A stretch of DNA of 64,000 nt from Panopea generosa (lineage: Eukaryota; Mollusca; Bivalvia; Adapedonta; Hiatellidae), in the NCBI GenBank assembly GCA_029582155.1, contig CM055899.1, forward strand, positions 55,695,853-55,759,852. The letters run 5' to 3'. Position numbers and translations under genes: made by a program. Of the stretch, positions 25,461-62,262 are shown piece after piece (positions within the stretch are counted from its first letter, which is position 1; every line of letters begins with the position of its first letter). The notes under the pieces were generated by a model, which was not told the origin of the DNA, did not search any database, and was given only the letters and a program-made list of their open reading frames with translations.

Positions 25461-25484
25461 ATTCGACGATGGAAATGTTGGCTT
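25461..25484 (+). CDS. 24-base microexon, copy A of the segment
   Basis: TTTACTTTTCAG precedes and GTAAGACTTGTTTTGTA follows, the same flanks as every other microexon in the window. The exon has 24 bases, a multiple of three. In phase 1 it reads STMEMLA after a split first codon. It ends in T instead of the usual G, so joining to the next exon gives a tyrosine codon if spliced to 33176, but a stop codon if spliced to an exon beginning AA. This limits which exons it can join. It is less certain than the later copies. Confidence 0.5.

Positions 25485-32179: not shown

Positions 32180-32241
<62 letters not shown>
32180..32241. repeat. (TCTG)n microsatellite, shorter allele of the duplicate
   Basis: About 15 units against about 28 in copy A. 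The flanking sequence is otherwise alike. Confidence 0.97.
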
Positions 32242-32242
<1 letters not shown>

Positions 32243-33175: not shown

Positions 33176-33199
33176 ATGGCAAGGTGTTAAAGTTATATG
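33176..33199 (+). CDS. 24-base microexon, copy B of the segment
   Basis: TTTATTTTTCAG precedes and GTAAGACTTGTTTTGTA follows. Open in phase 1 as GKVLKLY after a split aspartate or tyrosine codon, and closed by TAA in phase 0. It ends in G, so the junction with an exon starting AA gives glutamate. It aligns in position with 25461-25484 but differs strongly in its own bases, while the flanking introns are nearly identical. That suggests the exon itself has changed faster than its introns. Confidence 0.55.
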
Positions 33200-33410
33200 G
33201 TAAGACTTGTTTTGTATTTACATAAACATAATGAATTGAGCTCGAAATTGGAGAAGTTACGTTGAATTGAAAATGTATCATGAGAGATGGAGATTTGTGT
33301 ACTAAACACATATTTTAGTGCATCAAGCATGTGTCATTTTTCTATACAGTACGCTATTGTGGATCTTGAATAAACGACAATACATTGAATTTAATAATAA
33401 CAACATATCA

Positions 33411-34205: not shown

Positions 34206-34310
34206 TTGGTGTTTTTTTTTTTTTTTTTTCTTAACTGTATAATCGTTTTATTATGTAACTTTGCACTTTCCAAAACATATTGCAATTATATCTCAATTCC
34301 TTCAACAACA

Positions 34311-36475: not shown

Positions 36476-37351
36476 TGCGTTATTGCCCTTTCTATCGCAG
36501 CAAACCGTTTTTGCATTCCTCACTACATTTTTTGATAATTACTTTATTATTTATTTGTATTTTTGTGGATTTTAAACGTATACTTGTAGAAAAATAACAA
36601 TTAGTCTCTCATAGCTCTGTAAAAAGCCTCTCTTAACTTCACTATTTATATTTGTCAATGTTTAATACATTTATGATTGTAATGTGATAGAGGTGAGACT
36701 ATAATAAAATATATGTTAGGTTATGTTTATGTTATGTTATCATTATTTTATGCACCCCCCCCCCCCCACACACACACACAATATTTTGGGGGTGGCATAT
36801 ATTTATCGCAGCGTCCGTCTATCCATCCGTCCGGTATTTTGTGTCCGGCCTGTAACTTTGTCATGCAAAAATGTTTTTTATAAATACTTGCTTCAAATGA
36901 TTAACTTTATTGTAAAAATAAAAATTGTGTGTCTAGTTTGAATTAAAAATAAACCTATGTTTAAACTTAGTTCTGACTTCGAACAAGTATTCCGCACAGA
37001 TAAAGGTGTCGATGTGCTATGTTCATCACATTGGTCTATTTAATGGTGATTGTAAAATTGCATTGCCATTTTTTTGTTAATCCATACTTTCCTATGACTG
37101 TGTCCTGTCTTTAAAATCAATTTGCAAATTGCCATTTCAATATAAACATGCAGTTTATTACCACAAAAATACAACATTCTATGCACTACACCATTGTCTG
37201 TAACTTAAAGTTCTAGCTCACACAACTCCCAAAAGAAATATATTGCTTATGTATTTCGCCAAAATAATATGTATTTATAATTGAAATTGTTTTATAAAAT
37301 TATTTTATTTGACTCGGTACTGTTTTACGATTGGATTTATTTATTTTGCAG

Positions 37352-37375
37352 AAGAATTAACGGAACATCTGAGGG
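37352..37375 (+). CDS. 24-base microexon (E-ELTEHLR)
   Basis: TTTATTTTGCAG precedes and GTAAGACTTCTTTTGTA follows. In phase 1 it reads a split glutamate, then ELTEHLR, and leaves one G for the next split codon. It is the first microexon of the unduplicated array and keeps the eight-codon length of the two to its left. The acidic and basic residues with leucines suit an amphipathic helix. Confidence 0.7.
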
Positions 37376-39912
37376 GTAAGACTTCTTTTGTATTTAAATG
37401 AAAATCACGTAATGAATTGAGTTCGAAATTGGGGAAGTTTTGTTGAATTAAAATTGTATCATGAAATATTGAGATTGGTATAGTAAACATGCTTCCCATC
37501 TTGCTTCAAACATACGTTAGTTATGAATATTGAAATATATAGACACCATGTCATGGCGTGCTTTAACATGAAATCAAGTTGATATACGTTTATATTGGAT
37601 TAAAGAAATATACAGATTTACACATTTATATTATAATAGCAATTTTGATTAAGTAAAACGCTGGCGAAATAGTTCCTGCTTTTATCGTCAAAGTATTTAG
37701 GTTGCAACGAAATACACGAAATTATTTGAAAAAACATTACTATTCAAATCTATTTAAAGACTTAATTGCGTTTGTTTTAGTGCTTAAATGCAGCCCCACT
37801 CTAAATCGTATGCTTTACGTTTATACTTATTTATTTTAATTTGAATGCTTAGAACGTATAGGAACCGATCTATATTCTGCTTCCTAGATAGATCTGAGTT
37901 CTTAGTGTTATTTTAGTAACATCGAGATAAGCTGGTAATACAACCGGAATGCCGTTGTATATCTATTCTTAAGAACTAAAATGTAGTACTGTTCTGCATT
38001 CACATTTAAGTTGTACACGGCAGCGAGGCATGAAACGTAATTAACAACGGAAGGTGTATATTCTATCACGCATTCAGACTATTAATACAACTCATTTCTC
38101 ATGGCATATGTACGGTAATGTCCTGTTTTGATGAAATAGAACAGACGGAAACAATTTAATGTGGTGCATTAAAATGTTATTGAAATGAGCATACAGATCT
38201 CGCATACGAGTCTCCATGCAAGTTGTAGCTTGCGCAATCAAAATCATTTTAATCAACATTTAGGTTTCCTCTCTACTTCTTGGAGACTTTAGAAAACGTA
38301 ATGGATATATTTTCTACTGTGATACATGTGTAGAGATTTAGGGCAAATGTTTTAAACTTTCCATCCGACGTAGAAAATGGTATCTTAAATTCAATTCTCC
38401 TTTGGGAACGTTATTATTATCGATGCAGCTACGTCGTTTTGTAATGAACACGAAACGATTCAAATAGAAATATCCGATCATTTTGATAATTTAGCACATT
38501 CGGTACATCACCTCCACCCATGTGTCAACCATGTAGTTATTTCTATTTATATATCCGTAAATTCACGATTAACTTAAATAAATTGCCACTATTTCATATA
38601 CATAAAACAACCATAACCACTACGGTAATCATATTATTCTTTATTCTATATTATTAATTCATTTTCATATACGTACTGATCAATAAGTTTACTAATTACC
38701 ATAAAAGTGTAATTCATAAAACGATAAAGAGAATGATTTCATAAGCATTATGTTTCCGTTTTTATCCTTATTCTATGATTGTATATACCAGCTACCATAA
38801 AGTATATATAAATAAAAATAAAACTATGTTTAAACTTAGTTCTAACTTCGAACGAGTACTCTGCACAGATAAAGGTGTCAATGTGCTTTGTTCATCACAT
38901 TGGTCTATTTAATGGTGGTTGTAAAATCGCTTTGCCATTTTTATGTTAATCCGTACATTTCTATGACTATGTCCTGTCTTTAACATTAATTTGCAAATTG
39001 CAATTTCAATATAACCATGCAGTTTATTACCACAAAATAACAACATTCCATGCACAACATCATTGTTTGTAGCTTAAAGTTTATTCTCTATTATTAATTT
39101 ATTTTCATATACGTATTGATAAATAAGTTTACTATTTACCATAGCATGGTACTTTTTAAAACGATAATGAAATTGATGTCAGAGACTGAGTTACGTATGT
39201 GTAAGTAGCTGTGTATTTATTCCTAAATGCAGAACTAGTCTGAAATCGCATTTTACTGTAAGCTGTACTTTCTGAAGGTGATTGCTATTTGTTTATTTAT
39301 TTTTTCATTTTTTTTAAATGTTATTATCTTCATTAAGTAATGTATATATATACTTGGTGAGTATGAAAAAACAAACTTTTATTATACAACGTAGTACAAC
39401 ACTTTTTTATATAAACTGTATCCACTTATTTAAAACAAACTGCATTTTAGCAGTTTGGGTATAGCCAGCAATATATAAAATTCACACAATATCCCATAAA
39501 CAGACTTTGTGGAAATTATTTTATTAGTATATTATTATTATATATGTGTAAAACGATATACTTATACTTTGTATTACGATTATATTACATTCAAACTTCA
39601 TTTTTCAATTAATACATACAATGAAAGAAAATCCTAAATTCACCATGACTTTAATACATTGATTATGATAGTTTTGTTTGTGGTGCAAATATATTACTAC
39701 AATTAACTTTAATTTTTTACGATGTATGTGCAACATTTTATGCACATCACCATTGTCCATAGCTTAAAGTTCCGAGTCACACAACTACCAATAGAAATAT
39801 ATTGCATATGTAATTCGTCAAAATCAACATGTAATCAATCTTTGGAATTGTTTAATAACTGTGTTTCATTGGACACGATACCGTTTTAGGAATGAATAGC
39901 ATTTACTTTGCA

Positions 39913-39933
39913 AAATGTGGAAAGTTCGGAAAG
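39913..39933 (+). pseudogene. dead microexon copy: acceptor lost
   Basis: The body aligns with the 21-base exons (MWKVRK after a split codon) and the donor GTAAGATTTGTTTTGTA is intact. The acceptor reads TTTGCAAAATG where the others read TTTGCAGAAATG, so the AG is missing. With no AG directly before it, the exon should be skipped. Its length is still 21 and it carries no stop. Confidence 0.75.
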
Positions 39934-40667
39934 GTAAGATTTGTTTTGTATTAACATGGGTATGACATGTAATTAATTGTGTAGTAAACATGCCGTACAT
40001 CTTTGAGTGCTTCAACCATGTGCGAATATGAGCATTGCAAAGGAATATACACCATGTCTTTTTGGTCAGGAATAATCGACAATACATTTAATTTAATAAT
40101 AGCAACTGATAAGGTAAATTTTGTTTTTTTTTAATAATGGAGCTAATTTCAGGATCAGTTTTTTTCCCGGTGTTAAAATTTGCGTTGCTTGAATATATGT
40201 GAACTTTAAGACACTGCCTTAAAATGCTTTTGATGTGGAGAAGTAGGTATCTATCAATATTGAAATCATCGTAATACTTTACTTATGCAGTTAAAATGCG
40301 ATAATCTGAGTGAATTATGATAGCGATGTTGTTTATTTAGTTTTATTTTCAAACGTCCTTTAACATTTATATACGTTTATCTTTGATTAAAGAAATGTAC
40401 AGATTTACACTTTTATAATGCAATAGCAATTGTGATTAAGTAAACCGTAGGCGAAAATATTTCGCTGGTTTCTAATCTACAAAAAAAATTAGTTGTAATA
40501 ATACTTCATGATATTTTTATTTTCATTTGCCAAGAAATAAAACAGTCGAAAACCATTAAAAGTGCGGTATTGATTATTTTATTGAAATCTGTATACAGAT
40601 CTCGCATACGAGTCACCGTGTCAACTGTATTTCGTTCAATCAGAAGCATTTTAATATATATATTAAT

Positions 40668-40790
40668 ATGAGTTTCTCCTCTTTACCTGTTGGACTTCAA
40701 CTGAAGGGATTTATTTTTAACTGTAACACTTATGTAGACGCAAGGCATGTTTTTTTTACTCTCAGTCTTACTAAGAAAACAGAATCTTAA
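40668..40790 (+). other. recurrent 40-codon ORF block, copy 1
   Basis: An ORF beginning MSFSSLPVGLQLKGFIF and ending LTKKTES before TAA. Related blocks lie at 47586-47708 and 50813-50935. Broken forms lie near 43446, 52526 and 54230, and shorter relatives end in a DAR|GTAAAT-like junction at about 45850, 49400 and 55600. No family is recognised. It may be a fossil exon or part of the cassette carried along passively. Confidence 0.4.
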
Positions 40791-41648
40791 ATTACATTAT
40801 TTTTTGAGAACATAATTTTGACGTTGCCTCGAGTAATCGAATTTCCGATGTATCAACATACATGTAGTTTTATAAAAGAACAGGAAACACTTCAAATAGA
40901 TATATCACATATTTTTGATAGTATAGCACAATCGGTACATGACCTTCCCCCACCTTTGTCTCAGCCATGCATTTATTTCCATTGTTCAATCTGCAAATTC
41001 ACGGTTGATTTAAAAGAAAAATGTCAATAAAACATAAAATTGTGCATCAAACAATTATAACGACTACGGTAATTACATTATTTTTAATTCTTTATTTTAA
41101 TGTATTTGATATACATATTGATCAATTAGTTAATTACTTACTATTTACCATAAAAGTGTTCTATAAAAAACGATAAAGTCTTAGAGATCAGCAATATTGT
41201 TTTCACTTTTATTATTTTTCTATGATTGTATATACCTGTTACCTTATAGTATATATAAAGAGAAGTAAAACTATGTTTAAACTTAGTTCTAACTTCGGAA
41301 GAATATTTCACATCACATTGGTCTATCAAATTGGAGTTGGGAAATCGAATCGCTATTTGTATGTTAATCTGTGCTTTCATATGACCTTGTCCTGTCTTTA
41401 ACAGCTATTTGCAGGTTACAATATTAATATTACCTTGCAGTTTATTACCACAAAATAAACAACATTTAATGCACATCAACATTGTCCGTAGCTTAATTTT
41501 CAAAGTCACACAACTTCCAAAAGAAATATATTGCATAAGTAATTCGTCAAAATCAACATATAATCAATCTTTGAAATTGTTTAATAACTGTGTTTTTTTT
41601 GGACACGATACTTTTTTATTATTGAATTGAATTGTCTTTACTTTTCAG

Positions 41649-41669
41649 AAACAAAGGAAGCTCAGAAAG
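41649..41669 (+). CDS. 21-base microexon, heptad ETKEAQK
   Basis: Preceded by TTTACTTTTCAG and followed by GTAAGACTTGTTTTGTATTA. Exactly seven codons in phase 1, entering with AA after an upstream G and leaving with G. It is highly charged and polar with the conserved alanine at position 5 shared by all intact 21-base copies. Confidence 0.78.
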
Positions 41670-42698
41670 GTAAGACTTGTTTTGTATTAACATGGGTATC
41701 ACATATAATAAATGGTGTAGTAAACATGCCGTACATCTTTGATTGCTTCCACCATGTGCTATTATGAGCATTGAAATGTATAGGCACCATGGCATGGCTG
41801 GTCAGGAATTATCGACAATACAGTTATGTTAAAACATGTCATAGCAACTGATCAGGTTAGTTTTGGGTTTTTAATGATGGAGCAAAGTTCAGTATCAGTT
41901 TTTTCTGGTGTTAGAATTTGCGTTGCTTGAATATTTGTGAACTTTTAGACACCGTCTAAAATATTTTCGATGTTGAAAAGTAGGGATTTATTGATATTGA
42001 GATCATCGTAACAAAATTTAGAACAATATTGCATAACCATATTGATTGAACAAATAATATGGTGGAGTGTTGCAGTTATAGACACTTGATCAAGGGGGAT
42101 ACCAATATTGCAATTATTGTTATTGCTAATATGTACACCATTATTGGGCGTTCAAAAACTGAGTTTTGTCAATAAAATGTTATAAGTTGTAAACATTTAG
42201 AAAAGTAAATATTTTAATAATTAATGCATTTCGCATAAACACTTTTGAATAACGATGCAATAATTTCAATATATTCGTTAATATAGTTTAAATGAGACTG
42301 TATTCGGAGCAAAGTCCCGGCATAAAAACGTACATACACAAATGCAATACTTAATTGGAAAACTATTTCACATCACATTAGTCTATCAAATTGGAGTTGG
42401 GAAATCGAATCGCCATTTGTATGTTAATCTGCACTTTCATATGACCTTGTCCTGTCTTTAACAGCTATTTGCATTTTACAATTTCAATATAACCTTGCAG
42501 ATTATTACCACAAAATAACAACATTTTATGCACATCACCATTGTCCGTGGCTTAAAAATCAAAGTCACACAACTCCCAAAAGAAATATGTTGCATATTGA
42601 ATGCGTCAAAATCAACATGTAATCAATCTTTGAAATTATTAAACTGTGTTTTATTGGACACGATACCGTTTAACGATTGAATTGTGTTTACTTTGCAG

Positions 42699-42719
42699 AA
42701 AAAATGAAAGCTGCGGAAG
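42699..42719 (+). CDS. 21-base microexon, heptad EKMKAAE
   Basis: Preceded by GTTTACTTTGCAG and followed by GTAAGACTTGTTTTGTATTA. Phase 1, seven codons. The exon sequence is identical to those at 50062 and 51776, although its cassette lies 7.4 kb away with other heptads in between. Confidence 0.82.
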
Positions 42720-43517
42720 GTAAGACTTGTTTTGTATTAACATTGGTTTCCCATATAATAAATGGTGTAGTAAACATGCCGTACATCTTTGAGTGCTTCC
42801 ACCATGTGCTATTATGAGCAATGAAATGTATAGACACCATGTCATGGCGGTTAAAGAATAATCGACATTACAGTTAATTTAATGATAGCAACTGATCATG
42901 ACAATTTTGTATTTTTTTCAATCAAGATCAGTTTTTTTTCCGGTGTTAGAATTTGTGTTATTTATATATATGTGATCTTTTACACGCCGCCGTAAATGTT
43001 TTTGATGTTGAGAAGTAGGAATCTATCGATATTCAGATCATCGTAATACTTAACTTATGCAGTTAAAATGCGATAATCTGAGCGAATATGATAGCGATGT
43101 TGTTTATTTAGTTTTATTTTCCAACGTCTTTTAACATTTATTCAAGTTGATATACGTTTATCTTTGATTAAAGAAACGTACAGATTTACACTTTTATAAT
43201 GCAATAGCAATTTTGATTAAGTAAACCGTAGTCGAAAATATTTCTCTGGTTTCTAATCTACAATTAACTTAGTTTTAATACTAATTCATGATATTGTTTT
43301 TTTTTCATTTGCCTAGAAATAAAAAAAAAAAATTTAAATTGCGGTATTGTTTATTTTATTGAAATCAGTATACAAATCTCGCTTACAAGTCACCGTGCCA
43401 ACTGTATTTCGTTCAATCAAAATCATTTTAATATATATGTTGTTATGAGTTTATCCTCTTTACCTGTTGGACTTCAACTTAATGGATATATTTTCTACTG
43501 TAACGCATATGTAGATG

Positions 43518-44101
43518 TCACCACCTTCTCCCCTTGCCCTCAATGGGCTGGATCCGGTAGAACAATTTATAGGATATTTAGATACATTGAACACATATCG
43601 AGTTTCCAATAGTTTTATATCTCTCCAATCATTCCATATATATATTCAGTGATCTATCATGCATTCTGAAACAAACATTAGAAACAATAAATACTATGAT
43701 ACATACAATAAAACAATCAATATACAACTTGTTCGGTGATGGTGGCTTACACAATGACAGTTCAATATAACATTTACAAATATCTGATTCACTTATAATA
43801 TTAAACAATTCGAATGGTTCCAATTATACAAAACAATATGTTGCTGATTATTGGAAAATATAACACAATATAATTACCTGTAGTTATAATAAATATTTCT
43901 CACATTTGTGGTTATCATCGCACAAACAAATGAATATGTCTTATTTCAACAATGTGAAAGTCACATAATGAGTGTAAAATCTGTGCACTGTTTTAGTTAT
44001 ATTTAGATCATAGACCTAAAGGGAAGTAATGAATGTACCAAACTAACTAAGCTACTGTTTTTACTTAAAGCTACCTACTCTGTATATAACATACTATGAC
44101 A
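43518..44101. mobile_element. 584-bp insertion with candidate 6-bp target duplication
   Basis: The 40-codon ORF block is split here: sequence matching the other copies stops at TATGTAGATG (43517) and resumes at TAGATGCAAAGCAAATG (44102). TAGATG flanks both sides. The insert begins TCACCACCTTCTCCCCTTGC and ends TATATAACATACTATGACA, with no poly(A), no clear inverted ends and no coding motif. Family unknown. Confidence 0.7.
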
Positions 44102-44995
44102 TAGATGCAAAGCAAATGTTTTCGACTCTCAGTCTTACTAAGAAGACAGTACTTGAATTCCATTTTATTTTGAGAAAATGATTTTGACGTTGACTCGAAT
44201 AATCGAATTTTTCGATGTATCAACATAGTTTTATAAAAGAACAGGAAAATTTCAAATAGATATATCACATATATTTGATAGTATAGCACAATCGGTACAT
44301 GGCCTCCTCCAACGTTGTCTCAGCCATGCATTTATTTTAATTGTCCCATCTGCAAATTCACGGTTGATTTAAAGAAATTGTCAATAACACATATGCATCA
44401 GTCAGTTATAACGACTACGATAATTATATAGTTTTAAATTCTCTGTTATTAAAGTATTTTGATATACATGTTGATCAATTAGTTAACTATTTACTGTTTA
44501 CCATAAAAGTGTTATATATAAAATGATAAAATCTTAGAGATAAACATTATGTTGTCGCTTTTTTTTACTTTTTCTATGATTGTATATACCTGTTACCATA
44601 TAGTATATATAAAGTGAAATAAAACTATGCTTAAACTTGGTTCTAACTACTAAAGAATATTTCACATCACATTGGTCTATCGAATTGTAGTTGAAAAATC
44701 GCATCGCCATTTGCATGTTAATCCGCACTTTCCTATGAACTTATCCAGTCTTTAACAGCAATTTGCATATTGCAATTTTGATATAACCTTGCAGTTTATT
44801 ACCACAAAATAACAACATTTTATGCACATCACCAATGTCCGTAGCTTAATGTTCAAAGTTACACAACTACCAAAAGACATATATTGCATATGTAATTCGT
44901 CAAAATCAACATGTAATCAATCTTTGAAATTGTTTAATAACTGTGTTTTATTGGACTCGATACCTTTTTATGATTGAATTGTATTTACATTGCAG

Positions 44996-45016
44996 AAATG
45001 GGAAAAGCTCGGGAAG
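44996..45016 (+). CDS. 21-base microexon, heptad EMGKARE
   Basis: Preceded by TTTACATTGCAG and followed by GTAAGACTTGTTTTGTATTA. Phase 1, seven codons. It differs from the EKMKAAE type by a one-position shift of the methionine, while alanine 5 is kept. Confidence 0.82.
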
Positions 45017-46129
45017 GTAAGACTTGTTTTGTATTAACATGGGTATCACATATACTAAATGGTGTAGTAAACATGCCGTACATCATTGTGTGCTTCCACC
45101 ATGTGCTATTATGAGCATTGAAATGTATAGGTACAATGGCATGGCGGGTCAGGAATAATCGACAAAACATTTATGTTAAAACATGTAATAGCTACTGATC
45201 AGGTTAGTTTTGGTTTTTTAATGATGGAGCAAAGTTCAGTATCAGTTTTTTCGCCGGTGTTAGAAAGTGTATTGCTTGAATATTTGTGAACTTTTAGACA
45301 CCGCTTATTTAAACTCGAATGCGAAGAAAGCCAAGAAGCAGGAAATCGAATCCGCAACATGTCGTTGTGTATTTATTCCTAAGAACTAGAATGTAGCACA
45401 GGTTGAAATCAGACTTTACATGTACATGGTAGCGAGGCATGGAACGGAATTAACAACGGAATGTGTATATTTGAACACGCATTCAGACTATTAATACTAA
45501 ATTCTCTTGTCATTTACAAAGAACCTATTGGCACTATATATCAATATAATTGCATTGTTATTATTTATTTATTATTATATAATATATACAATAAAATATT
45601 ATAAAATTACTTTCATTGATCCTGGCATGTGGTATCTTTTTGGTGAAATAAAACAGACGGAAACCATTTTAAGGGCGGTATTGAAATTCTCTTGAACTGA
45701 CCATCCATATCCTGCATACGAGACTCAGTCCCAGTTGTGGTTTGCTCAATAAAATCATCTTTTGACAAATATTCTAGTTTAATCTCGGCTGCTGTTGGTG
45801 TTTGGAAATGTAACGATCACATTTACCACTGTAACAAATATAGAGACGCAAGGTAAATGTTTTCAACTTTCCATTTGACTAAAAAAACAGTATCTTATAA
45901 TACAATCGCTATATGTTTCCCTTTAAAATTATCTCAACCATGCAATTATTTCTAATGTTCCATTCGCAAATTCAAGGTTAATTTAAAGAATTTGTCAATA
46001 TCACATATCCATATAACAAATACAAACATGCCATACATCTTTGTGTGTTTCCAGTATGGGTTACCAATTTAGTTACAACGAAAGGCACGTTTTTTTTCGA
46101 AAACATTATTTCCATCCGTTTAATTCGGT

Positions 46130-46330
46130 GCTTTACGTTTATACTAATTGGTTTTTACTTGAATGCAAAGAAATCTCAGAACATATATGAACCGCTCTAT
46201 TTCCTAGAAATCACTGAGAACTTCGTGTTTTATTTTTGTGGCATTGGGTCAAGCTGGAATTCGAACCTGCAACATGTGGCATGAGCGGTCAACACTGTCA
46301 CAACTACACTATATCCGGTAAAGTACCATC
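46130..46330 (-). mobile_element. tRNA-derived SINE, minus orientation
   Basis: On the minus strand: CCGGATATAGTGTAGTTGTG with a box A-like TAGTGTAGTTGTGA, then TGTTGACCGCTCATGCCAC and a perfect box B GGTTCGAATTCC at about 46255-46266. The body extends left to about 46130. It is the best-preserved head of this family in the window; the copy near 55900-56060 has lost the head. Confidence 0.75.
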
Positions 46331-47585
46331 CCGCTTAACATCGCAGGATTTCAACTTGTACACGGCAGAGAGGTCTGAACATCGATAACGGTAGTTTTTG
46401 ATGGCCATTGCAATCTGTTTATTAACAGGATTTCAAAAGGATGATTATCGTTGATATTTATGTAACATGTCTATGCATCTCTACCTTCTTGCATGTATTT
46501 CAGAATCAAATAATGACACAAGCATAGTCTGGATAGTAATTTGCATTCTGAAGTAAAATTATGTCATTTTTGTAGTCTATATATTGCATTTTCTTACGTT
46601 AATTGATTTATTCTTCTGTTTGTGTGTAAACTAATGTTAAACGTAAACATCATAATATTGCTCTGTTAACAACCTACATGATAAGTTGTAAACATGCTAA
46701 TAACACATAATAAAACGAGACTGGAAAGAATGGAGGGTAGTTATTCAACAGACTCTCGTCTGATTTTAACACCATACTAATATACCTGTATAATATTTTG
46801 AACATATATATTTACCATAAAAAATATGACAAATCATTTTTGTACATGACACTGTTTAACAATTCTGATAAAAAGCGTCAGTCGAAGAAAATATATCTCG
46901 GTCGAATATCGTATAACACAGTCGAAAACCTGAGAGCTAGTATCGAGTAACATATTGGTACATCCACTGTATTTATTGAAGGACAATGAATGTTTTCTAC
47001 AGCACTAGATAACTTTGAATGATATTTGCTGTCATAAACGTAAAGTAGTATAGAGTATTTTGTGTTTTAATATTATCCTTTAAATGATTTTAATATATAA
47101 AGAAAGTTCATGGACTTCTGGAATAGGCATCATAGTGTTATATTGGTAAAGCAAACATCTGGCCAAGTAGAACCCATTTGCTTTACGCATGACATAAATA
47201 TATAATTTCGTGTTTTGCAGCATTAGACATTTTAAATTCCACAAAAGTATTATATTATTGCAAACAACTCATGCTAATTGTTGTTTTTGTAACTAAACAC
47301 TTGTTTTCGATAATTATGCATTACTAGCTAAATATCAATGTTTATTTTCTGCATTTAAGACAATCTCAATAAAGAAACGAAGTTTGAAAAATACGTTACA
47401 ATTTTCAATTTAACAAATGTTTATCGTAATTTATGATATTTTTTTTCATTTTGACTAGAAATAAAACAGTTGAAAACTATTTAAAGTGTGATATTGACAA
47501 GTTTATTGAAATTAGTATACAAATCTGGCAAACGAGTCACCGTGCCAACTGTATTTCGTTCAATCAAAATCATTTTAATATAAAA

Positions 47586-47708
47586 ATGAGTTTCTCTTCT
47601 TTACCTGTTGGACTTCAACTTAATGGATTTATTTCCTATTGTAACACATATGTAGACGCAAGGCAAGTGTTTTTGACTCTCTGTCTTACTAAGAAAACAA
47701 TATCTTAA
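47586..47708 (+). other. recurrent 40-codon ORF block, copy 2
   Basis: Reads MSFSSLPVGLQLNGFISYCN, then TYVDARQVFLTLCLTKKTIS and TAA. It is intact. The conserved core across the copies is N-G-x-I-x-x-CN-x-x-VD-x-x-Q-V-F. A donor-like AGACGCAAGGCAAGTG lies inside it, where related blocks have AAGGTAAATG, so it may once have been an exon ending at DAR. Confidence 0.4.
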
Positions 47709-48556
47709 ATTCAATTCATTTTTAGAACAGGATATTGATGTTGACTCGAAAATTCGAATGTTCGATGTATCAACATCTATTTATAAAAGAACAGGAAACA
47801 CTTCAAAAAGATATATCACATATTTTTGATAGTATAGCACAATTGGTACATGGCCTCCTCCACTGTTGTCTCAGCCATGCATTTATTTTCATTGTTCCAT
47901 CTGCAAATCACGGTTGATTTAAAGAAATTGTCAATAACACATATGCATCAAACAATTATAACGACTACGGTAATTATATAGTTTTTAATTCTCTATTATT
48001 AATGTATTTTGATATACATATTGTTCAATTAGTTAACTATTTACCACAAAAGTGTTCTAAATAAAACGATAAAGTCTTAGTGATACATGTAAGTATTATG
48101 TTTTCGTCTTTATCCTTATTCTATGATTGTATAAACCTGTTACCATCCATAAAGTATCTATAAAGAGAAATAAAACTATGTTTAAACGTTCTAACTTCTT
48201 AAGAATATTTCACATCACATTGGTCTATCGAATTGTAGTTGGGAAATCGCATCGCCATTTGTATAGTAATCCGCACTTTCCTATGAACTTGTCCAGACTT
48301 TAACAGAAATTTGCATATTACAATTTCAATATATCCTTGTAGTTTATTACCACAAAATAACAACATTTGATGTAGATCAACATTGTCTGTAGCTCAAAGT
48401 CCAAAGTCGAAGTTCAAAGTCACACAACTACCAAAAGAAATATATTGCATATGTAATTCGTCAAAATCAACATGTAATCTATCTTTGAAAGTGTTTAATA
48501 ACTTTGTTTTATTGGACACGATACCTTTTTATGATTGAATTGTATTTACATTGCAG

Positions 48557-48577
48557 AAATGGGGACAGCTCGGGAAG
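48557..48577 (+). CDS. 21-base microexon, heptad EMGTARE
   Basis: Preceded by TTTACATTGCAG and followed by GTAAGATTTGTTTTGTATTA. Phase 1, seven codons. The closest relative is EMGKARE at 44996, in a cassette of matching layout, which supports a local duplication of the longer cassette type. Confidence 0.82.
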
Positions 48578-50061
48578 GTAAGATTTGTTTTGTATTAACA
48601 TGGGTATCACATATAATTAAGGGCGTAGTAAACATGTGTGCTTCCACCATGTGCTATTATGAGCATTGCAATGTATAGGCACCATGGCATGGCGGGTCAG
48701 GAATAATCGACAATACATTTAATTTAATACATGTACTAGCAACTGATCAGGTTAATTTTTGTTTTTTAATGATGGAGCAAAGTTCAGTATCAGTTTTTTT
48801 CCGGTGTTGTAACTTGCCTTGCTTGAATTTTTGTGAACTTTTAGACACCGCTTATTTAAACTCGAATGCTAAAACAGCCCAGAAGTGGGAAATCGAATCC
48901 GCAACATGTCGTTGTATACTTTTCCTAAGAACTAGAATGTAGCGCAGGTTGAAATCATATTTAATTTGTACATGGTAGCGAGGAATGGAACGGAATTAAC
49001 AACGGAATGTGCATATTTGAACACGCATTCAGATTATTAATACTAATTTCTAATTTCTTGTCATTTACAAAGAACCTATTGGCACTATATATCAATATAA
49101 TTGCATTGTTATTATTTATTTAATATCAAATAATATATACAATAAAATATTATTAAATTAATTTCTTTGATACTGGCATGTTGTATCTTATTGGTGAAAT
49201 AAAACAGACGGAAACCATTTTAAGGGCGGTATTGAAATTCTATTTAACTGACAATGCATATCCTGCATACGAGACTCAGTCCCAGTTGTAGCTCGCTTAA
49301 TAAAATCATCTTTTGACAAATATTCGAGTTTACTCTCGGCTGCTGTGGGCGTTTGGAAATGTAACGATCACATTTACCACTGTAACAAATATAGAGACGC
49401 AAGGTAAATGTTTTCAACTTTTTATTTGACTAAAAAGACAGTTTCTTATAATACAATCGATATATGTTTTCCTCGAAAAATTATCTCAACCATGCAATTA
49501 TTTCTAGTGTTCCATCCGCAAATTCAAGGTTAATTTAAAGAAATTGTCAATATCACATTTCCATATAACAACTACAAACATGCCATACATCTTTGCGTGC
49601 TTCCAGCATGTGTTACCATTTTAGTTACAACGAAAGGCATGTTTTATTTCGAAATCATTTTTTCCATTCGTTTAATTCAGTGCTTTACGTTTATATTAAT
49701 TCGTTTTTACTTGAATGCAAAGAAATCTCAGAACATATTGGTCTATCAAATCGGAGTTTGGAAATTGAATAGCAATTTGTAAATTAATCTGCATTTTCAT
49801 ATAATCTTGTCCTGTCTTTAACAGCAATTTGCATAATACAATTTCAATATAAAATTGCAGTTTATTACCACAAAATAACAACATTTTATGCACATCACCA
49901 TTGTCCGTAGCTTAAAAATCAAAATCACACAACTACCAAAATATATATATTGCATATTTAATTCGTTAAAATCAATATGCAATCAATCTTTGAAATTGTT
50001 TAATAACTGTGTTTTATTGAACACGATACCGTTTTACGATTTAATTGTGTTTACTTTGCAG

Positions 50062-50082
50062 AAAAAATGAAAGCTGCGGAAG
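50062..50082 (+). CDS. 21-base microexon, heptad EKMKAAE
   Basis: Preceded by GTTTACTTTGCAG and followed by GTAAGACTTGTTTTATATTA. Phase 1, seven codons, identical to the exons at 42699 and 51776. Confidence 0.83.
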
Positions 50083-50812
50083 GTAAGACTTGTTTTATAT
50101 TAACATGAGATTCCCATATAATAAATGGTGTAGTAAACATGCCGTGCGTCTTTGACTGCTTCCACCATGTGCTATTATGAGCAATGAAATGTATAGACAC
50201 CATGTCATGGCGGTTAAAGAATAATCAACATTACATTTAATTTAATGGTAGCAACTGATCATGTAATTTTTTTTTTTCAATCAAGATCAGTTTTTTTTCA
50301 GGTGTTATAATTTGTGATGTTTTAATATATGTGAACTTTTAGACACCGCCGTAAATGTTTTTGATGTTGAGAAGTAGGAATCGATCGATATTGAGATCAT
50401 CGTAATACTTAACTTATGCAATTAAAATGCGATAATCTGAGTGAATTATGATAGCGATGTTGTTTATTTAGTTTTATTTTCCAACGTCCTTTAACATTTA
50501 TTCAAGTTGATATACGTTTATCTTGGGTTAAAGAAATGTACAGATTTACACTTTTATAATGCAATAGCAATTTTGATTAAGAAAACGGTAGTCGAAAATA
50601 TTTCTCTGGTTTTTAATCTACAAAAATAAATTAGTTGTAATACAAATTCATGATATCTTTTTTTTCATTTGCCTAGAAATAAAACGGTCGAAAACCATTT
50701 AAAGTGCGGTATTGTATATTTTATTGACATCAGTATACAAATCTAGCTTCCGAGTCACCGTGCTAACTATATTTCGTTCAATCAAAATCATTTTTATATA
50801 TATGCTATAATT

Positions 50813-50935
50813 ATGAGTTTCTACTCTTCACCTGTTGGACTTCAACTTAATGGATATATTTTCTACTGTAACACTTTTGTAGACGTAAAGCAAGTGTTTT
50901 CGACTATCAGTCTTACTAAGAAAACAGTATCTTAA
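50813..50935 (+). other. recurrent 40-codon ORF block, copy 3
   Basis: Reads MSFYSSPVGLQLNGYIFYCN, then TFVDVKQVFSTISLTKKTVS and TAA; intact. The next copy near 52524 has lost one base in the CTGTAACAC stretch and is out of frame, and the copy near 54230 ends early. Confidence 0.4.
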
Positions 50936-51775
50936 ATTACATTTTTTTTTTGAGAACATGATTTTGACTTTGACTCGAATAATCTAATTTTCGATGTATC
51001 AACATTGATTTATAAAAGAACAGGAAACACTTAATATAGATATATCACATATTTTGGAAAGTGTAGCACAATCTGTACATGGCCTCCCCCACTGTTGTCT
51101 CAGCCATGCATTTATTTCCACTGTTCCATCTGCAAATTCATGATTGATTTAAAGAAATTGTCAATAGCACATCCGCATCAAACAATTATAACGACTACGG
51201 TAATTATATAGTTTTTAATTCTGTATAATTATTAATGTATTTTGATATATATATTGATCAATTCGTTTACTATTAACTGTTTACCATAGAAGTGTTTATA
51301 TAAAACGATAAAGTCTTAGAGATAAGCGTTATTGTTTCCGCTTTTATTATTTTTATATGATTTTATATACCTGTTACCATATAGTATATATAAAGAGAAA
51401 TAAAACTATGTTGAAACATTGTTCTAACTTCGGAGGAATATTTCACATCACATTGGTCTATCGAATTGTAGTTGGGAAATCGCATCACCATTTGTATGTT
51501 AATCTGCATTTTCATATGACCTTGTCCTGTCTTTAACAGCTATTTGCATGTTACAATTTCAATATAACCTTGCAGTTTTTTACCACAAAATAACAACATT
51601 TTATGCACATCACCATTGTCCGTAGCTTAAAAATCAAAGTCACACAACTACCAAAAAAATATGTTGCATATTTAATTTGTCAAAATCAACAAGTAATCAA
51701 TCTTTGAAATTGTTTAATAACTGTGTTTTATTGGACACGATACCGTTTTACGATTGAATTGTGTTTACTTTGCAG

Positions 51776-51796
51776 AAAAAATGAAAGCTGCGGAAG
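51776..51796 (+). CDS. 21-base microexon, heptad EKMKAAE
   Basis: Preceded by GTTTACTTTGCAG and followed by GTAAGACTTGTTTTGTATTA. Phase 1, seven codons. Exactly 1714 bases after the previous identical exon, in a cassette that is nearly the same throughout. Confidence 0.84.
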
Positions 51797-53483
51797 GTAA
51801 GACTTGTTTTGTATTAACATGGGTTTCCCATATAATAAATGGTGTAGTTAAGATGCCGTGCTTCTTTGAGTGCTTCTACCATGTGCTATTATGAGCATTG
51901 AAATGTATAGACACTATGTCATGGCGGTTTAAGAATAATCGACATTACATTTAATTTAATGATAGGAACTGATCATGGAAAAAAATCTATTCCAATCAAG
52001 ATCAGTTTTTTTCCAGTGTTAGAATTTGTGTTGTTTATATATATGTGAAATTTTAGACACCGCCGTAAATGTTTTTTATGTTGAGAAGTAGGAATCTATC
52101 GATATTGAGATCATCGTAATACTTAACTTATGCAGTTAAAATGCGATAATCTGAGTGAATTATGATAGCGATGTTGTTTATTTAGTTTTATTTTCCAACG
52201 TCCTTTAACATTTATTCAAGTTGATATTCGTTTATCTTGGATTAAAGAAATGTACAGATTTACACTTTTATAATGCAATAGCAATTTTGATTAAGAAAAC
52301 CGGTAGTCGAAAATATTTCTCTGGTTTTCTAATCTACAAAATAAATTAGTTGTAATACAAATTCATGATATCTTTTTTTTTCATTTGCCTAGAAATAAAA
52401 CAGTCGAAAACCATTAAAGTGCAGGTATTGTATATTTTATTGAAATCAGTATACAAATCTAGCTTCCGAGTCACCGTGCTAACTGTATTTTGTTCAATCA
52501 AAATCTTTTTTATATATATACTATTATGAGTTTCTACTCTTCACCTGTTGGACTTCAACTTAATGGATATATTTTCTACTGTACACTTTTGTAGACGTAA
52601 AGCAAGTGTTTTTGACTATCAGTCTTACTAAGAAAACAGTATCTTAAATTACATTTTTTTTTGAGAACATGATTTTGACGTTGACTCGAATAATCTAATT
52701 TTCAATGTATCAACATAGATTTATAAAAGAACAGGAAACACTTAAAATAGATATATCACATATTTTAGAAAGTATAGCACAATCTGTACATGGCCTCCTC
52801 CCACCGTTGTCTCAGCCATGCATTTATTTCCATTGTTCCATCTGCAAATTCACGATTGATTTAAAGAAATTGTCAATAGCACATCTGCATCAAACAATTA
52901 TAACGACTACGGTAATTATATAGTTTTTAATTCTCTATTATTAATGTATTTTGATATACATATTGATCAATTCGTTAACTATTTACTGTTTACCATAGAA
53001 GTGTTTACATAAAACGATAAAGTCTGAGAGATAAGCGTTATTGTTTTCGCTTTTATTCTTGCTCTATGATTTTATATACCTGTTACCATATAGGATATAT
53101 AAAGAGAAATAAAACTATGTTGAAACATAGTTCTAACTTCGGAGGAATATTTCACATCACATTGGTCTATCGAATTGTAGTTGGGAAATCGCATCACCAT
53201 TTGTATGTTAATCTGCATTTTCATATGACCTTGTCCTGTCTTTAACAGCTATTTGCATGTTACAATTTCAATATAACCTTGCAGTTTTTTACCACAAAAT
53301 AACAACATTTTATGCACATCACCATTGTCCGTAGCTTAAAAATCAAAGTCACACAACTACCAAAAAAATATGTTGCATATTTAATTTGTCAAATCAACAA
53401 GTAATCAATCTTTGAAATTGTTTTATAACTGTGTTTTATTGGACACGATACCGTTTTACGATTGAATTGTGTTTACTTTGCAG

Positions 53484-53504
53484 AAAAAATGAATGCTACG
53501 GCAG
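53484..53504 (+). CDS. 21-base microexon, heptad EKMNATA
   Basis: Preceded by GTTTACTTTGCAG and followed by GTAAGACTTGTTTTGTATTA. Phase 1, seven codons. Relative to EKMKAAE, three residues changed although the surrounding cassette is nearly identical to its neighbour at 51776. All changes are single-base and keep the frame. Confidence 0.83.
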
Positions 53505-54745
53505 GTAAGACTTGTTTTGTATTAACATTGGTTTCCCATTTAATAAATGGTGTAGTTAACATGCCGTGCGTCATTAAGTGCTTCCACCATGTGCTATTAT
53601 GAGCATTGAAATGTATAGACACCATGTCATGGCGGTTAAAGAATAATCAACATTACATTTAATTTAATGATAGCAACTGATCATGTAATTTTTTTTTTCC
53701 AATCAAGATCAGTTTTTTTTCCGGTGTTAGAATTTGTGTTGCTTGAATATATGTGAATTTTAAGACACCGCCTTAAAATGTTTTTGATGTTGAGCAGTAG
53801 AAATCTATCGATATTGAGAACAACGTAATACTTAACTTATGCAGTTAAAATGCGATAATCTGAGTGAATTATGGTAGCGATTTTGTTTATTTAGTTTTAT
53901 TTTCCAACGCCCCATGACATTTATTCAAGTTGATATACGTTTATCTTGGATTAAAGAATTGTACAGATTTACACTTTTATAATGCAATAGCAATTTTGAT
54001 TAAGTAAACCGTAGTCGAAAATATTTCGTTGGTTTCTAATCTACAAAATAAATTATTTGTAATACAAATTCATGATATTATTTTCATTTGCCTATAAATA
54101 AAACAGTCGAAAACCATTAAAAGTGCAGTATTGATTATTTTATTGAAATCAGTATGCATATATCACATACAAGTCACCTTGCCAACTGTATTTTGTTCAA
54201 TCAAAATCATTTTAATATATATGTTGTTATGAGTTTCTACTCTTTACCTGTTGGACTTCAACCTAATGGATATATATTCTACTGTAACAATTTTGTAGAC
54301 GCAAAGCAAGTGTTTTCGACTCTCAGTCTTATATGACAGTATCTTCAATCCAATTATTTTTTGAGAACATGATTTTGACGTTGACTCGAATAATTTAATT
54401 TTTGATGTATCAACATAGATTTATGAACAGGAAACGCTTCAAATATATATATCACATATTTTTGTTAGTATAGCACAATCGGTACATGGCCTCCTCCAAA
54501 GTTGTCTCAGCCATGCATTTATTTCCATTGTTCATTCTGCAAAATCACGGTTGATTTAAAGAAATTGTCAATAACACATATGCATCAGTCAATTATAACG
54601 ACTACGGTAATCATATAGTTTTTAATTCTCTATTATTAATGTATTTTAATATACATATTGATACATTAGTTAACTATTTACTTTTTAAAACTGTGTTTTA
54701 TTGGACACGATACCGTTTTACGATTGAATTGCATTTACTTTGCAG

Positions 54746-54766
54746 AAAAATTGAAAGCTGCGGAAG
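54746..54766 (+). CDS. 21-base microexon, heptad EKLKAAE
   Basis: Preceded by CATTTACTTTGCAG and followed by GTAAGACTTGTGTATTAC. Phase 1, seven codons. Its cassette is shortened on the left: the upstream intron block joins directly to AAACTGTGTTTTATTGGACA near 54688. It is the last microexon before the GTPase exon, 3.3 kb away. Confidence 0.83.
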
Positions 54767-54999
54767 GTAAGACTTGTGTATTACTATGGGTTTCCCATGT
54801 AATAAATGGTGTAGTAAACATGCCGTACGTCTTTGAGTGCTTCCACCATGTGCTTTTTTGAGCATTGAAATGTATAGGCACAATGGCATGGCTGGTCAGG
54901 AATAATCGACAATACATTTAATTTAATACATGTAATAGCAACTGATCAGGTTAATTTTGGGTTTTTAATGATGTAGCAAAGTTCAGTATCAGTTTTTTC

Positions 55000-57470
55000 T
55001 GGTATTATAATTTGCGTTGCTTTAATACTTGTGAACTGTTCGACACTGCTTATTTAAACTCGAATGCGAAGAAAGCCCAGAATTGGGAAATTGAATCTGC
55101 AACATGTCGTTGTGTTGTTATTCGTAAGAACTAGAATGTAGCACAGGTTGAACTCGTACTTTACTTGTACATGGTAGCAAGACATGAAACGGAATTATCA
55201 TTGGAAGGTGTATATTCGAACACGCATTCAGACTATTAATACTTATTTCTCTTGTTATTTACTAAGCACCTTTTGGCACAATATATCAATATAATTGCAT
55301 TGTTTTTATTCATTTAATAGTATGTAATATATACAATAACATATTATTAAATTAGTTTCATTGATATGGGCATGTGATATCTTTTTTTGTGAAATAAAAC
55401 AGACGGAAACCATTTGAAGGGCGGCATTTACGTTCTATTGAACTGACCATGCATATCCTTCATACGAGACTCCGTCCCAGTTTTAGCTCGCTCAATAAAA
55501 CTCATCTTTTGACAAATATTCGAGTTTACTCTCGGCTGCTGTGGGGCGTTTGGAAATGTAACGATCACATTTACCACTGTTACAAATATAGAGACGCAAG
55601 GTAAATGTTTACAACTTTCCATTTGACTAAAAATACAGTCTCTTATAATACAATCGCTATATGTTTTCCTCTAAAATTATCTCAACCATGCAATTATTTC
55701 TAATGTTCAGTCCGCAAATTCAAGGTTAATTTAAGGAAATTGTCAATATCACATATCCATATAACAACTACAAACATGCAATATATATGTGTGTGCTTCC
55801 AGCATGTGTTACCAATTCAGTTACAACGAAAGGCACGATTTATTTCGAAAACATTATTTCCATTCTATTCGCATACTCAATTTCGTTTAATTCAGTGCTT
55901 TACGTTTATACTAATTCGTTTTTACTTGAATGCGAAGCAATCTCAGAAGATATCTGAATCGCTCTATTTTCTAGAAATAACTGAGAACTTCATGTTCATG
56001 TTTGGTGGCATCGCGTCAAACTGTAATTTGAACGGTACAGTACCAACCCGCTTAACATCACAGGATTTCAACTTGTACACGGTAGAGAAGTCTCTTCCTC
56101 GATAACAGTAGATTTTGATGACACTTGCAATCTGGTTATTTATAGGTTTTAAAAAGAAATGTTATTGTTGATGTTTATGTAAAATGTATATGTGTCTCAG
56201 TATTTCAAAATCTTACATGTATAATGACACAAGCATACATGTAAATAAACATAATTTGCATTTGGAGGTCAAATTATGTCATTTTTGTAGTCTGTATATC
56301 GCATTTTCTTACGCCAATTGATTTATTCTTCTGTTTGTATGTAAATTGATATAAAAATTAAACATCACGATAGTGTCCAGTTAACAACCTAAATGATTAG
56401 TTGGAAACATACATATTACACATAATAATACGAGCTTGGAAAGCATGGAGGGTAGTTATTGAATTGGCTCTCGTCTGATTTTAGCAATATATTAAGATAA
56501 CTGTATAACATTTTAAATATATATATTAACCATAAAAAAATATGACTAATCATTGTTGCACATCACAAAAGTTGGCAACTCTGATAAAATGCGTCAGTTG
56601 AACAAACTACATATCGGTCGAATATTGCATAACACGGTCGAAACCTGGGAGCGAGTATCGTCTCGGTCGAAAACATCTTGGTACATCCACTGTGTTTATG
56701 GAAGGCCAATGAATGTTTTCTACAGCACTAGGGTTTATACCAATCGATTGTACAGACACGGTCTATCAATCAAACAAGTCGATAAACCAACAAGCGGTTG
56801 CTATTGGTTGATATATGCGAACCTTCTCTAAGTAAACACTACACTGTATAACATTGTATTTAATTGAACAACCAACTCTACGTGGTCAGTGGACATTATA
56901 TGCTTTAACAAATTCTGCATATGGGGTTAAGCGATGTTCAAGAATATTTTAGTCATATCGCGACAGTGTCTTCTAAAAACGTTGAAACACATTTCAAACA
57001 AAATTAAGTTAAAAATTTATTAAATGTAGAAAGTAATAGGATTATTTAATTTACATTTGGTTTTCATCATTTAAGTTAATTGAAAGAATTTGGTCCAGAG
57101 GGTTTGTTATACAACTTTACATCGATTATACGCAAATATGAACATGTAAATATCATCATTGATTTTTGTTTTTAGATAAAGAGTTTGACTCCGATAATGT
57201 GACCAGATGATTTCAATGATGTAATATAATATAACATTAAACTCAATACCATAATAAGTAAATAACAACTTTGGATAGATTTTTGCGGTCATAAACGTAT
57301 AGTAGTATAAAGTATGTTGTGTTTTAATATTATCGTTTAATTATTTTTACACAAAAAGAAAAGCATAACTTGCTAAATAGCACTGTTTATTTTCTGCATT
57401 TAAGACTATCTCAATAAAGAAACGAAATTTGAAAACTACATTACGGTTTTCCATTTAACAAATACTTATC
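55000..57470. repeat. distal cassette sequence, parallel to 45240-47460
   Basis: Matches 45240-47460 in order, including the WKCNDHIYHCN-type block (near 55550), a headless SINE (55900-56060), ATTTTTGTAGTCTGTATATC near 56282 and CATTTAAGACTATCTCAATA near 57400. No microexon follows it; instead the sequence turns unique before the GTPase exon. ORFs here are not supported as genes. Confidence 0.75.
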
Positions 57471-58037
57471 GTAACACAAATTCATGATACTATTTTTCAA
57501 TTGTTTAGCTTCATTAAAATGATATACCGTCATGTCGAATGCATTGACATGGACCATTAAATGATGTGTGGAAGTTTTGTACATATGATTTTTTTTTAAA
57601 TTATAATACTTTGGTGAATTTCACTTAACGGGCATTTAACCATTTTGTTATTTGTCTTGTGTAATTATTTAATTATTAGTACGTTTTACAGCTACACATC
57701 AAAGAATGCGTCGTATTTATAAATTACACTATTCTGTTCACTGAATTACAATCTATATATACCATGAGGTTTGATATTTATAAATATTGCTTACATCTCA
57801 GTCTGTTGCGAGGTAGTTGTTTTGGTTAAATATAAAGTTAGTGTTGTTGTATGATATTAAATCATAACATCAAACGTTGTTTTTAACCTATTTCAATTTG
57901 ATTACATAGTACGTCATATTATACAAATGAAAATATACTTCTATAACATCTCATTAAATAATCTAAATAACTCATTTGGTCTTGGAATTGTAGTATATCA
58001 TGTTATATATTTAAGGATATATATTTTTTTCATTAAG

Positions 58038-58301
58038 AATTACTACCAAAAGAGATACAACGTATGGATGCGAAGTCTATAGACATATATAAGCAAGCAC
58101 TTACTGAGGGAAAAGAAAAAGTTCACAACATCCGGGTCATGGTTGTCGGACATTTCAATGTAGGAAAGACGTCACTAACAAAACGAATGCTAGGGGAATC
58201 TGTTGATATCAATTCCGAGGAGAGCACAAATGGCATACAAGTGTATATGAGAAAATGCAAGGTTTCTTTACAGGATGGAATGTGGATCAAGTTAACAAAA
58301 G
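58038..58301 (+). CDS. Roc-like small GTPase exon (P-loop, switch I)
   Basis: Preceded by TATTTTTTTCATTAAG and followed by GTATTGATA. The exon has 264 bases, enters in phase 1 (AA after an upstream G) and leaves in phase 1. It reads ELLPKEIQRMDAKSIDIYKQ, a helical linker, then VHNIRVMVVGHFNVGKTSLT with a perfect P-loop (GHFNVGKT), KRMLGESVDINSEESTNGIQ with the switch-I-type T-x-GI, and RKCKVSLQDGMWIKL. This order fits the N-terminal half of Roc-type GTPase domains, found in large bivalve families and ROCO proteins. The Walker B (D-x-x-GQ) part must lie downstream, outside the window. An in-frame ATG at 58064 could serve as a start if the microexons are not used, but the frame stays open to the acceptor. 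The protein would bind and hydrolyse GTP; partners and location are unknown. Confidence 0.88.
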
Positions 58302-61117: not shown

Positions 61118-61312
61118 ATGAAATAACAAATGGAACCTCCAAGCGTCTCGTTAATTCGTTGAGTAATTACAAACAAAGCAAAGATACAGATGTTATTGAG
61201 CCCTTTACTGATAGTTCGTATAAAACTGATGCAGCTACATCTTCAACTTTGGAATCCTCAGAAGTTATTTATACAAGAGAACGACCAGACGAAAATATCG
61301 TGTATGATGATG
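61118..61312 (+). CDS. second exon of the GTPase domain: variable insert
   Basis: Preceded by AATACATTTCAG and followed by GTATATTTT. The exon has 195 bases (65 codons), phase 1 to phase 1, open throughout. It reads EITNGTSKRLVNSLSNYKQS, then KDTDVIEPFTDSSYKTD, a Ser/Thr-rich stretch, and YTRERPDENIVYDD. Roc-like GTPases of bivalves often carry a long polar insert between the first strands and the Walker B motif, beginning with a segment like TSRLVN, and this fits. It has no catalytic motif of its own. Confidence 0.75.
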
Positions 61313-62188: not shown

Positions 62189-62262
62189 AAGAAGAGCGTG
62201 TTGTCAAACCGTCAGAAGATGTCGATTCTGACAAACTGCAAACCTTTTTGGAAGATATCGAG
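62189..62262 (+). CDS. third exon of the GTPase gene
   Basis: Preceded by GTACTCTTACAG. Phase 1 entry gives EEERVVKPSEDVDSDKLQ and TFLEDIE. Two donors compete: GAG|GTAGGT at 62263 (leaving in phase 0) and GTAG|GTAGGA at 62267. The second makes the exon 78 bases and phase 1 to phase 1, like all other exons here. It is an acidic segment that continues the polar insert before Walker B. The gene runs on past the right edge. Confidence 0.65.

Follow-up and report, generated by a model that had tools for sequence, protein, structure and literature searches.

A 64,000-nucleotide stretch of contig CM055899.1 (C6) of the bivalve Panopea generosa, positions 55695853-55759852 in an assembly of 1.47 Gb and 39 contigs, was analysed in full and is referred to here as the window. 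It holds the first exons of a predicted ROCO-type GTPase gene and, upstream of these on the same strand, an array of exons only 21 or 24 bases long (Table 1). The original prediction had placed eight intact 21-base segments, one 24-base segment (37352) and a dead copy (39913) in front of a Roc-like GTPase exon. All were recovered at those positions, each of the eight 21-base segments having a CAG acceptor and a GTAAGA donor. All eight are open in phase 1 with an Ala at residue 5, and the acceptor phase of the Roc exon matches, as had also been claimed. A motif scan of the window allowing up to three mismatches returned exactly these eight exons, and nothing in 100 shuffles. Two further 24-base exons (25461 and 33176) were found by alignment and have flanks resembling those of other units; the array therefore begins ~12 kb earlier than first noted. 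Were 33176 spliced directly to 25461, its first residue would become Tyr. A profile built from 12 window units and run over 264 kb detected no further copies in the 160 kb upstream or the 40 kb downstream of the window, and a splice-site pattern search of both strands recovered the eight heptad exons, one of the three octad exons, and nothing else. No Rfam match was found in the window at gathering scores.

Table 1. Microexons, duplicated units and predicted GTPase exons of the window (position 1 is its first letter).
Feature	Position	Strand	Reading and remarks
24-base microexon	25461..25484	+	phase 1, DSTMEMLA; final base T, not G; absent from the earlier list
24-base microexon	33176..33199	+	phase 1, DGKVLKLY after a G; absent from the earlier list
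24-base microexon	37352..37375	+	phase 1, EELTEHLR
Tandemly duplicated units carrying 21-base exons	39731..56731 (limits approximate)	+	self-BLAST
Dead copy	39913..39933	+	EMWKVRK; acceptor AG lost, Val replaces Ala5
21-base microexon	41649..41669	+	ETKEAQK
21-base microexon	42699..42719	+	EKMKAAE
21-base microexon	44996..45016	+	EMGKARE
21-base microexon	48557..48577	+	EMGTARE
21-base microexon	50062..50082	+	EKMKAAE
21-base microexon	51776..51796	+	EKMKAAE
21-base microexon	53484..53504	+	EKMNATA
21-base microexon	54746..54766	+	EKLKAAE; last one detected before the Roc exon
First Roc exon	58038..58301	+	P-loop GHFNVGKTS; phase 1 in and out; 264 bases (267 in nine paralogues)
Next predicted coding exon	61118..61312	+	phase 1 in and out; open three-exon chain
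Predicted coding exon	62189..62262	+	phase 1 in, phase 0 out

To characterize these exons genome-wide, we used an unbiased pattern that fixes the intron flanks only and leaves exon length free between 12 and 42 bases. This first pattern matched 67 exons, all on C6, with no match for its backward control. Their lengths are 21 (46 exons), 24 (20) and 27 (one), all 67 being multiples of three when only 11 of the 31 permitted lengths are. Phase 1 is free of stops in all 47 distinct sequences, where base shuffling would leave 18.7 with one; phases 0 and 2 are interrupted in 27 and 16 of them, respectively. Since the exon copies share ancestry, these length and stop counts are not independent trials. 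A second pattern dispenses with the intron beyond the splice sites, requiring instead an AA start, GC in codon 5 and a final G, and gave 73 matches, 71 of them inside the cluster (control, 1). Over the three patterns run, 70 of 72, 67 of 67 and 71 of 73 matches lie on C6 at 54.9-57.6 Mb, with 0, 0 and 1 for the backward controls. A mobile element carrying the exon was considered and dropped, as only 0 to 2 matches per pattern fall outside this one cluster. The first-pattern matches, the second-pattern cluster matches and window exon 37352 together form a union set of 98 exons (66 distinct; 76 of 21 bases and 21 of 24), again with no phase-1 stop in any of the 66.

The junctions are equally regular. 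Judged on the first-pattern set only, because the second pattern demands these features, all but one of the 67 exons finish with G and all but two start with A, so that the junction codon would be Glu or Asp for nearly any joined pair, and exons could be gained, lost or skipped without harm to the frame or to their neighbours. The array thus follows a one-repeat-per-exon, single-phase design (67/67 lengths, 47/47 distinct exons open in phase 1), and an untranslated repeat should not show such conservation of frame and of freedom from stops.

The window gene is one of a 2.7 Mb cluster. A protein search with the Roc exon gave 44 matches, of which ten lie on C6 at 55.08-57.61 Mb with 91-100% identity, the more distant ones lying elsewhere in the genome. 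All ten close Roc exons are open and phase-1 compatible (the window copy is 3 bases shorter, in frame), and each of the ten is preceded by one or more microexons on its own strand, so the layout recurs at the related loci where the original prediction had proposed to look for it. Assigned by position alone, and therefore as lower bounds, microexons number from 1 to 13 in nine Roc intervals; the tenth, with 29, also spans other blocks, one of them on the minus strand. For nine of the ten Roc exons, the distance from the last microexon is 2.4 to 6.8 kb; for the tenth, the sole microexon found is 43.5 kb away. Two pairs of blocks each share six microexons letter for letter (C6 57.153-57.168 and 55.950-55.965 Mb; C6 57.586-57.605 and 56.607-56.627 Mb, the latter pair differing further on), and may represent recent segmental duplications or uncollapsed haplotypes. 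Further groups of related Roc exons, of 58-75% identity, occur on C12, C18 and C19 (L039-L048), and five of the ten that were read by eye (L040-L044) also look phase-1. No heptad-motif microexon was found near these other groups or on their contigs by the second pattern, which detects only that motif.

Downstream of the array, the predicted exons describe what we call a ROCO-type GTPase gene with a Death domain, on predicted exon joins and with a partial COR. Its first Roc exon scores 27.4 bits against Pfam Roc (cut-off 27), and the exon at 62189-62262 would join in frame to an exon beyond the window (L025:800) bearing the Roc motif DFAGQ; this second Roc piece (L025:800-1102) scores 36.1 bits against the same cut-off. 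The P-loop and G3 motif of a ROCO-type Roc domain are both present. One exon yields a partial COR-A match (22.5 bits, E 1.1e-4), below the curated cut-off of 35.3, and a Death domain in the predicted gene (L026:9394-9699) scores 38.8 bits (cut-off 22.6). Roc, COR or Death matched in four of the nine pieces scanned and the other five matched none. No kinase, ankyrin, leucine-rich repeat (LRR) or TIR part was found in these nine downstream pieces, the region upstream not having been scanned for domains. Against PDB sequences, exon 58038 has 12 matches, including 4wnr, 3dpu and 6hlu, which we take to be Roco proteins, the rest being other GTPases; the best is 4wnr (E 1.8e-6), titled 'Leucine-rich-repeat protein', and the Roc linker and P-loop align to all three. 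The Roc-like assignment of the original prediction is borne out by these Roc and Death matches, the COR-A match being partial. DAPK1-type ROCO proteins place Roc-COR in a cell-death context, and DAPK1 itself has a Death domain. Between the GTPase exons, L025:2991-5831 contains open reading frames (ORFs) that by eye resemble a reverse transcriptase and a tyrosine recombinase, DIRS-type-like; one piece of it was scanned, without a Pfam match.

The 21-base class has the consensus E-x-x-x-A-x-x, with Glu1 in 28 and Ala5 in 27 of the 29 distinct first-pattern heptads, and most nonsynonymous changes fall at residues 3, 7 and 6. By residue count, a hydrophobic residue occupies position 3 in 29 of the 47 distinct heptads and position 6 in 22, a spacing that could correspond to helix positions a and d; it is most evident in one group (56.98-57.02 Mb; EQLKALT, ERLNALK) and weak in others. 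Pro or Gly is present in nine of the 47. Coiled-coil character, as judged from these sequences, appears weak or mixed. Among 18 distinct 24-base exons, 11 start with D-G or D-R; positions 4 and 7 hold most of the hydrophobic residues, and to the eye these 11 look more strand-like than helical. Seven blocks contain both classes: in five of them the 24-base exons stand on the 5' side, and in the other two they are intermixed with the 21-base ones. The original prediction held that each segment adds one heptad and leaves the coiled-coil register intact. This stands for the 21-base class and fails for the 24-base class, each member of which adds eight residues and so shifts the register by one. 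Three of the 11 intact window exons encode eight residues, and the array is therefore not a continuous run of heptads; the picture of a stalk fits at most its 3' part. One 24-base exon (EKQKKAAE, C6:56289257) is a member of the 21-base family with apparently one codon inserted, a heptad turned octad.

Self-BLAST of the window shows that the 21-base exons multiplied together with their introns: for example, 51440-54687 matches 49725-52992 at 92.7% and 47653-49738 matches 44102-46186 at 88.8%, with neighbouring exons spaced 1.05 to 3.6 kb apart. The conserved intron flanks of the original prediction are present, and are accounted for by this tandem duplication of units. Between -880 and +149, binned divergence among five copies amounts to ~8-14% (the innermost bin includes part of the exon); farther out it reaches 16-20%. 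Only at the donor site does it drop markedly (3.6%). The first two 24-base exons, together with the sequence around them, lie in a separate large direct duplication (25049-28873 and 32765-36539), one piece of which aligns at 92.4% over 3.6 kb.

Exon and intron were next compared within these units. Across the segments shared by five copies (41649, 44996, 48557, 51776 and 53484; 1041 columns, exon and splice sites excluded), the exon's rate is 3.55 times that of the flank columns (likelihood ratio (LR) 16.4, p 5e-5). The first two codon positions taken together change 4.5 times as fast as the flanks (p 3e-5), and the third 1.9 times, which is not significant. A seven-copy comparison over 512 columns gives 2.26 (p 0.006); all of these tests are exploratory. 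Only two of 1024 21-column windows elsewhere in the unit equal the exon in variability, both at ~+210. An early test on eight copies, in which a four-part model gave LR 10.0 (3 degrees of freedom), had aligned a non-homologous stretch upstream of copy 54746; with that stretch masked (296 columns) the ratio is 2.7 (LR 11.05, p 0.0009). Beyond ~+320 divergence rises to 35-43% and BLAST pieces between subclasses stop at ~+300 to +360, so these columns were judged non-homologous and the shared segments were used instead. Copy 54746 was omitted from the tests on shared segments and on flanks to +650, and the dead copy 39913 from all rate tests. On this evidence, coding letters change faster than the surrounding intron in comparisons between subclasses.

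The same tendency appears in the ratio of nonsynonymous to synonymous changes (N:S), counted on a minimum-spanning tree that links the 47 distinct exons of the 21-base class. Edges of at most three differences (34 of 46) give 60:5 (omega 3.1-4.6 depending on the assumed kappa, p 0.008 to 0.0001), excluding codons 1 and 5 leaves 59:5 (p 0.02 to 0.0005), and edges of up to four differences give 83:10. For the 29 distinct first-pattern exons alone, 20 of 28 edges give 39:4 (p 0.09 to 0.006). The intron before the Roc exon is 14% divergent and the intron after it 2.4%. Taken as exploratory, and with caveats concerning subclasses and third positions, the repeat exons carry a signal of diversifying selection, and this signal is the main new result.

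As far as DNA can establish, these are coding-like, frame-neutral exons that are confined to one cluster and have spread by tandem duplication of intron and exon together. We consider it probable, though well short of certain, that they are translated, phase 1-1 microexons of a ROCO (Roc, COR-A, Death) gene family and encode a variable segment before the Roc domain. It is very probable from the sequence that they are translated, diversifying exons rather than mere spacers of a stalk.

Several results weigh against this interpretation. The evidence throughout is genomic DNA. The start of the gene and its first coding exon were not found by the 264-kb microexon profile, the splice-site pattern or the ORF lists, and a first-exon scan of 85 kb returned six candidates, none convincing among the four listed. 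The acceleration lies between subclasses and not within the commonest one: four EKMKAAE-type copies have an exon to flank ratio of 0.87. The early two-part test of eight copies gave a ratio of 1.6 (LR 2.7, 1 degree of freedom, not significant), and with flanks extended to +650 in seven copies the ratio is 1.3 (p 0.34), or 1.6 for codon positions 1 and 2 (p 0.11). Several versions of the test were thus run, two without significance, and for this reason the p values are exploratory. Some class differences resemble paired indels rather than point changes, and two of the repeated blocks are perhaps assembly duplicates, so the counts are not independent. Three third codon positions (bases 2, 14 and 20) vary hardly or not at all, perhaps because of splicing, which may lower the synonymous counts and inflate omega; the exon-versus-intron comparison does not depend on this constraint. 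Finally, N:S in the Roc exon is 29:9, about neutral, among sequences 3.3% apart, and so gives no sign of constraint on the partner domain.

Of the alternatives, the one that survives best is compatible with our interpretation: cells or tissues might choose subsets of the exons, making the array an alternatively spliced recognition repertoire. All exons being symmetric (phase 1-1) with near-uniform junction bases, nearly any subset would remain in frame, and brown algae offer a precedent in which same-phase repeat exons are alternatively spliced (PMC11378527). Constitutive inclusion would explain the DNA equally well, and we rate such a repertoire as a serious possibility that falls somewhat below an even chance.

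The rate signal could instead arise without selection, if gene conversion or recombination had homogenised the flanks or compensating indels had been misaligned. The confinement of the acceleration to between-subclass comparisons and the unit mosaicism visible in self-BLAST are in keeping with this explanation. Conversion tracts, however, should not end at a 21-base exon, and the nearest-neighbour differences counted genome-wide retain their strong nonsynonymous excess; an artefact of this kind therefore seems unlikely to us.

A still less probable alternative is that the exons are interchangeable spacers, with selection acting on the number of heptads before the Roc domain. It draws on the exact seven residues kept throughout the 21-base class (76 of the 98 union exons), on the differing exon numbers between genes (the lower bounds for nine loci given above), and on the near-fixed Glu1 and Ala5. 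Set against these are the register shift introduced by the 24-base class, the presence of Pro or Gly in nine of the 47 distinct heptads, and the placing of residues 3 and 6, the presumed a and d positions, among the most variable, which is the opposite of what a passive stalk should show. The original prediction had proposed such a device, for tuning or diversifying stalk length; the present evidence favours diversification of sequence at least as much as tuning of length. Lastly, the segments might be an untranslated by-product, intron repeats with old splice sites upstream of a protein begun at the in-frame ATG (58064) of the Roc exon, as the dead acceptor of copy 39913 and the unsuccessful upstream searches for a 5' coding exon would allow, but this is very improbable given the unbroken divisibility of the exon lengths by three, the lack of phase-1 stops and the acceptor phase retained in all ten close Roc exons.

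If the microexons are indeed translated and diversifying, the array would supply a stretch of protein, immediately ahead of the Roc linker, that varies in both sequence and length, reaching 80 residues in the window gene if all 11 intact copies are used, and occupying the place where LRR-type ROCO proteins carry their LRRs. Most likely this stretch would serve in recognition or oligomerisation, its 3' part being prone to form helix, and a fixed Glu1/Ala5 frame would present variable residues 3, 6 and 7 that set the choice of partner or ligand; the GTPase may then act as an immune-type switch that signals through its Death domain. More tentatively, and doubtful at present, ROCO-Death genes may form an animal immune-type receptor system whose diversity is assembled one heptad at a time, each gene taking a code for recognition or pairing at its N terminus from hypervariable microexons of seven or eight residues arrayed in the germline; tandem duplication could enlarge such an array and splicing could combine its exons, nearly all junctions being neutral for frame and residue. 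Should transcripts confirm these exons, they would be, to our knowledge, the smallest exon module evolving as a diversifying recognition unit. The array would then provide an animal parallel to the LRR-ROCO arrays of brown algae, in the same place and the same GTPase family, and would make it testable how an invertebrate without rearranging receptors diversifies an intracellular switch. It would also mean that gene prediction overlooking exons of less than 25 bases can hide such regions.

The window contains other repeats around the 5' part of the array. A 51-base repeat forms arrays at 18913-19456, 20796-22211 and 29798-30357, the consensus units at 19 kb and 21 kb being, by eye, apparent reverse complements. 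Perfect runs of the tetranucleotide GTCT occur at 24410-24520 (28 copies) and 32179-32242 (16 copies). Paired ORFs of 95 residues (25908-26192 and 33599-33883) are perhaps a retroelement relic, the first having a weak T5orf172 match (E 0.06, below cut-off).

The original prediction had supposed the arrangement to be undescribed. Among the titles listed from the open-access literature searched, none describes heptad microexon arrays before a ROCO GTPase; same-phase, diversifying repeat exons before ROC-COR have already been published for brown algae (PMC11378527). The brown-algal ROCO genes, whose 72-bp phase-2 LRR exons are described as undergoing shuffling, diversifying selection and alternative splicing (PMC11378527, citing Zambounis et al. 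2012), appear from that account to be the closest precedent. Both systems place same-phase, one-repeat exons before ROC-COR in a gene family, with shuffling and diversifying selection and a proposed role as immune receptors (PMC11378527). They differ in the unit, which is one LRR of 72 bp in phase 2 in the algae and a heptad or octad of 21 or 24 bp in phase 1 in Panopea, units of seven and eight residues that are not LRRs. A Death domain follows in the Panopea gene, unlike in the brown-algal description, and alternative splicing is reported in that source for the algae only. The micro-exon genes of schistosomes, described as encoding secreted proteins with very few conserved motifs, share very short exons between long introns and a proposed role as a source of protein variation (PMC10526429). 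Measured against that description, the Panopea gene is a large ROCO-type gene with one repeat family, in one phase, duplicated in tandem with its introns, and its protein is not built mainly from micro-exons, as the gene runs on into normally sized exons for Roc, COR-A and Death. In Aplysia, TLR-like, MyD88-like and TIR immune proteins are reported to contain ROCO domains (PMC9334734), similarly placing Roc-COR in an immune context, in an account whose relevant passages make no mention of a microexon array. Troponin T (TNNT3) likewise has 5' same-phase exons that are alternatively spliced (PMC2447309), but it is a single-copy gene, and what that account says of it includes neither a recent tandem array nor the diversifying selection suggested here for Panopea.

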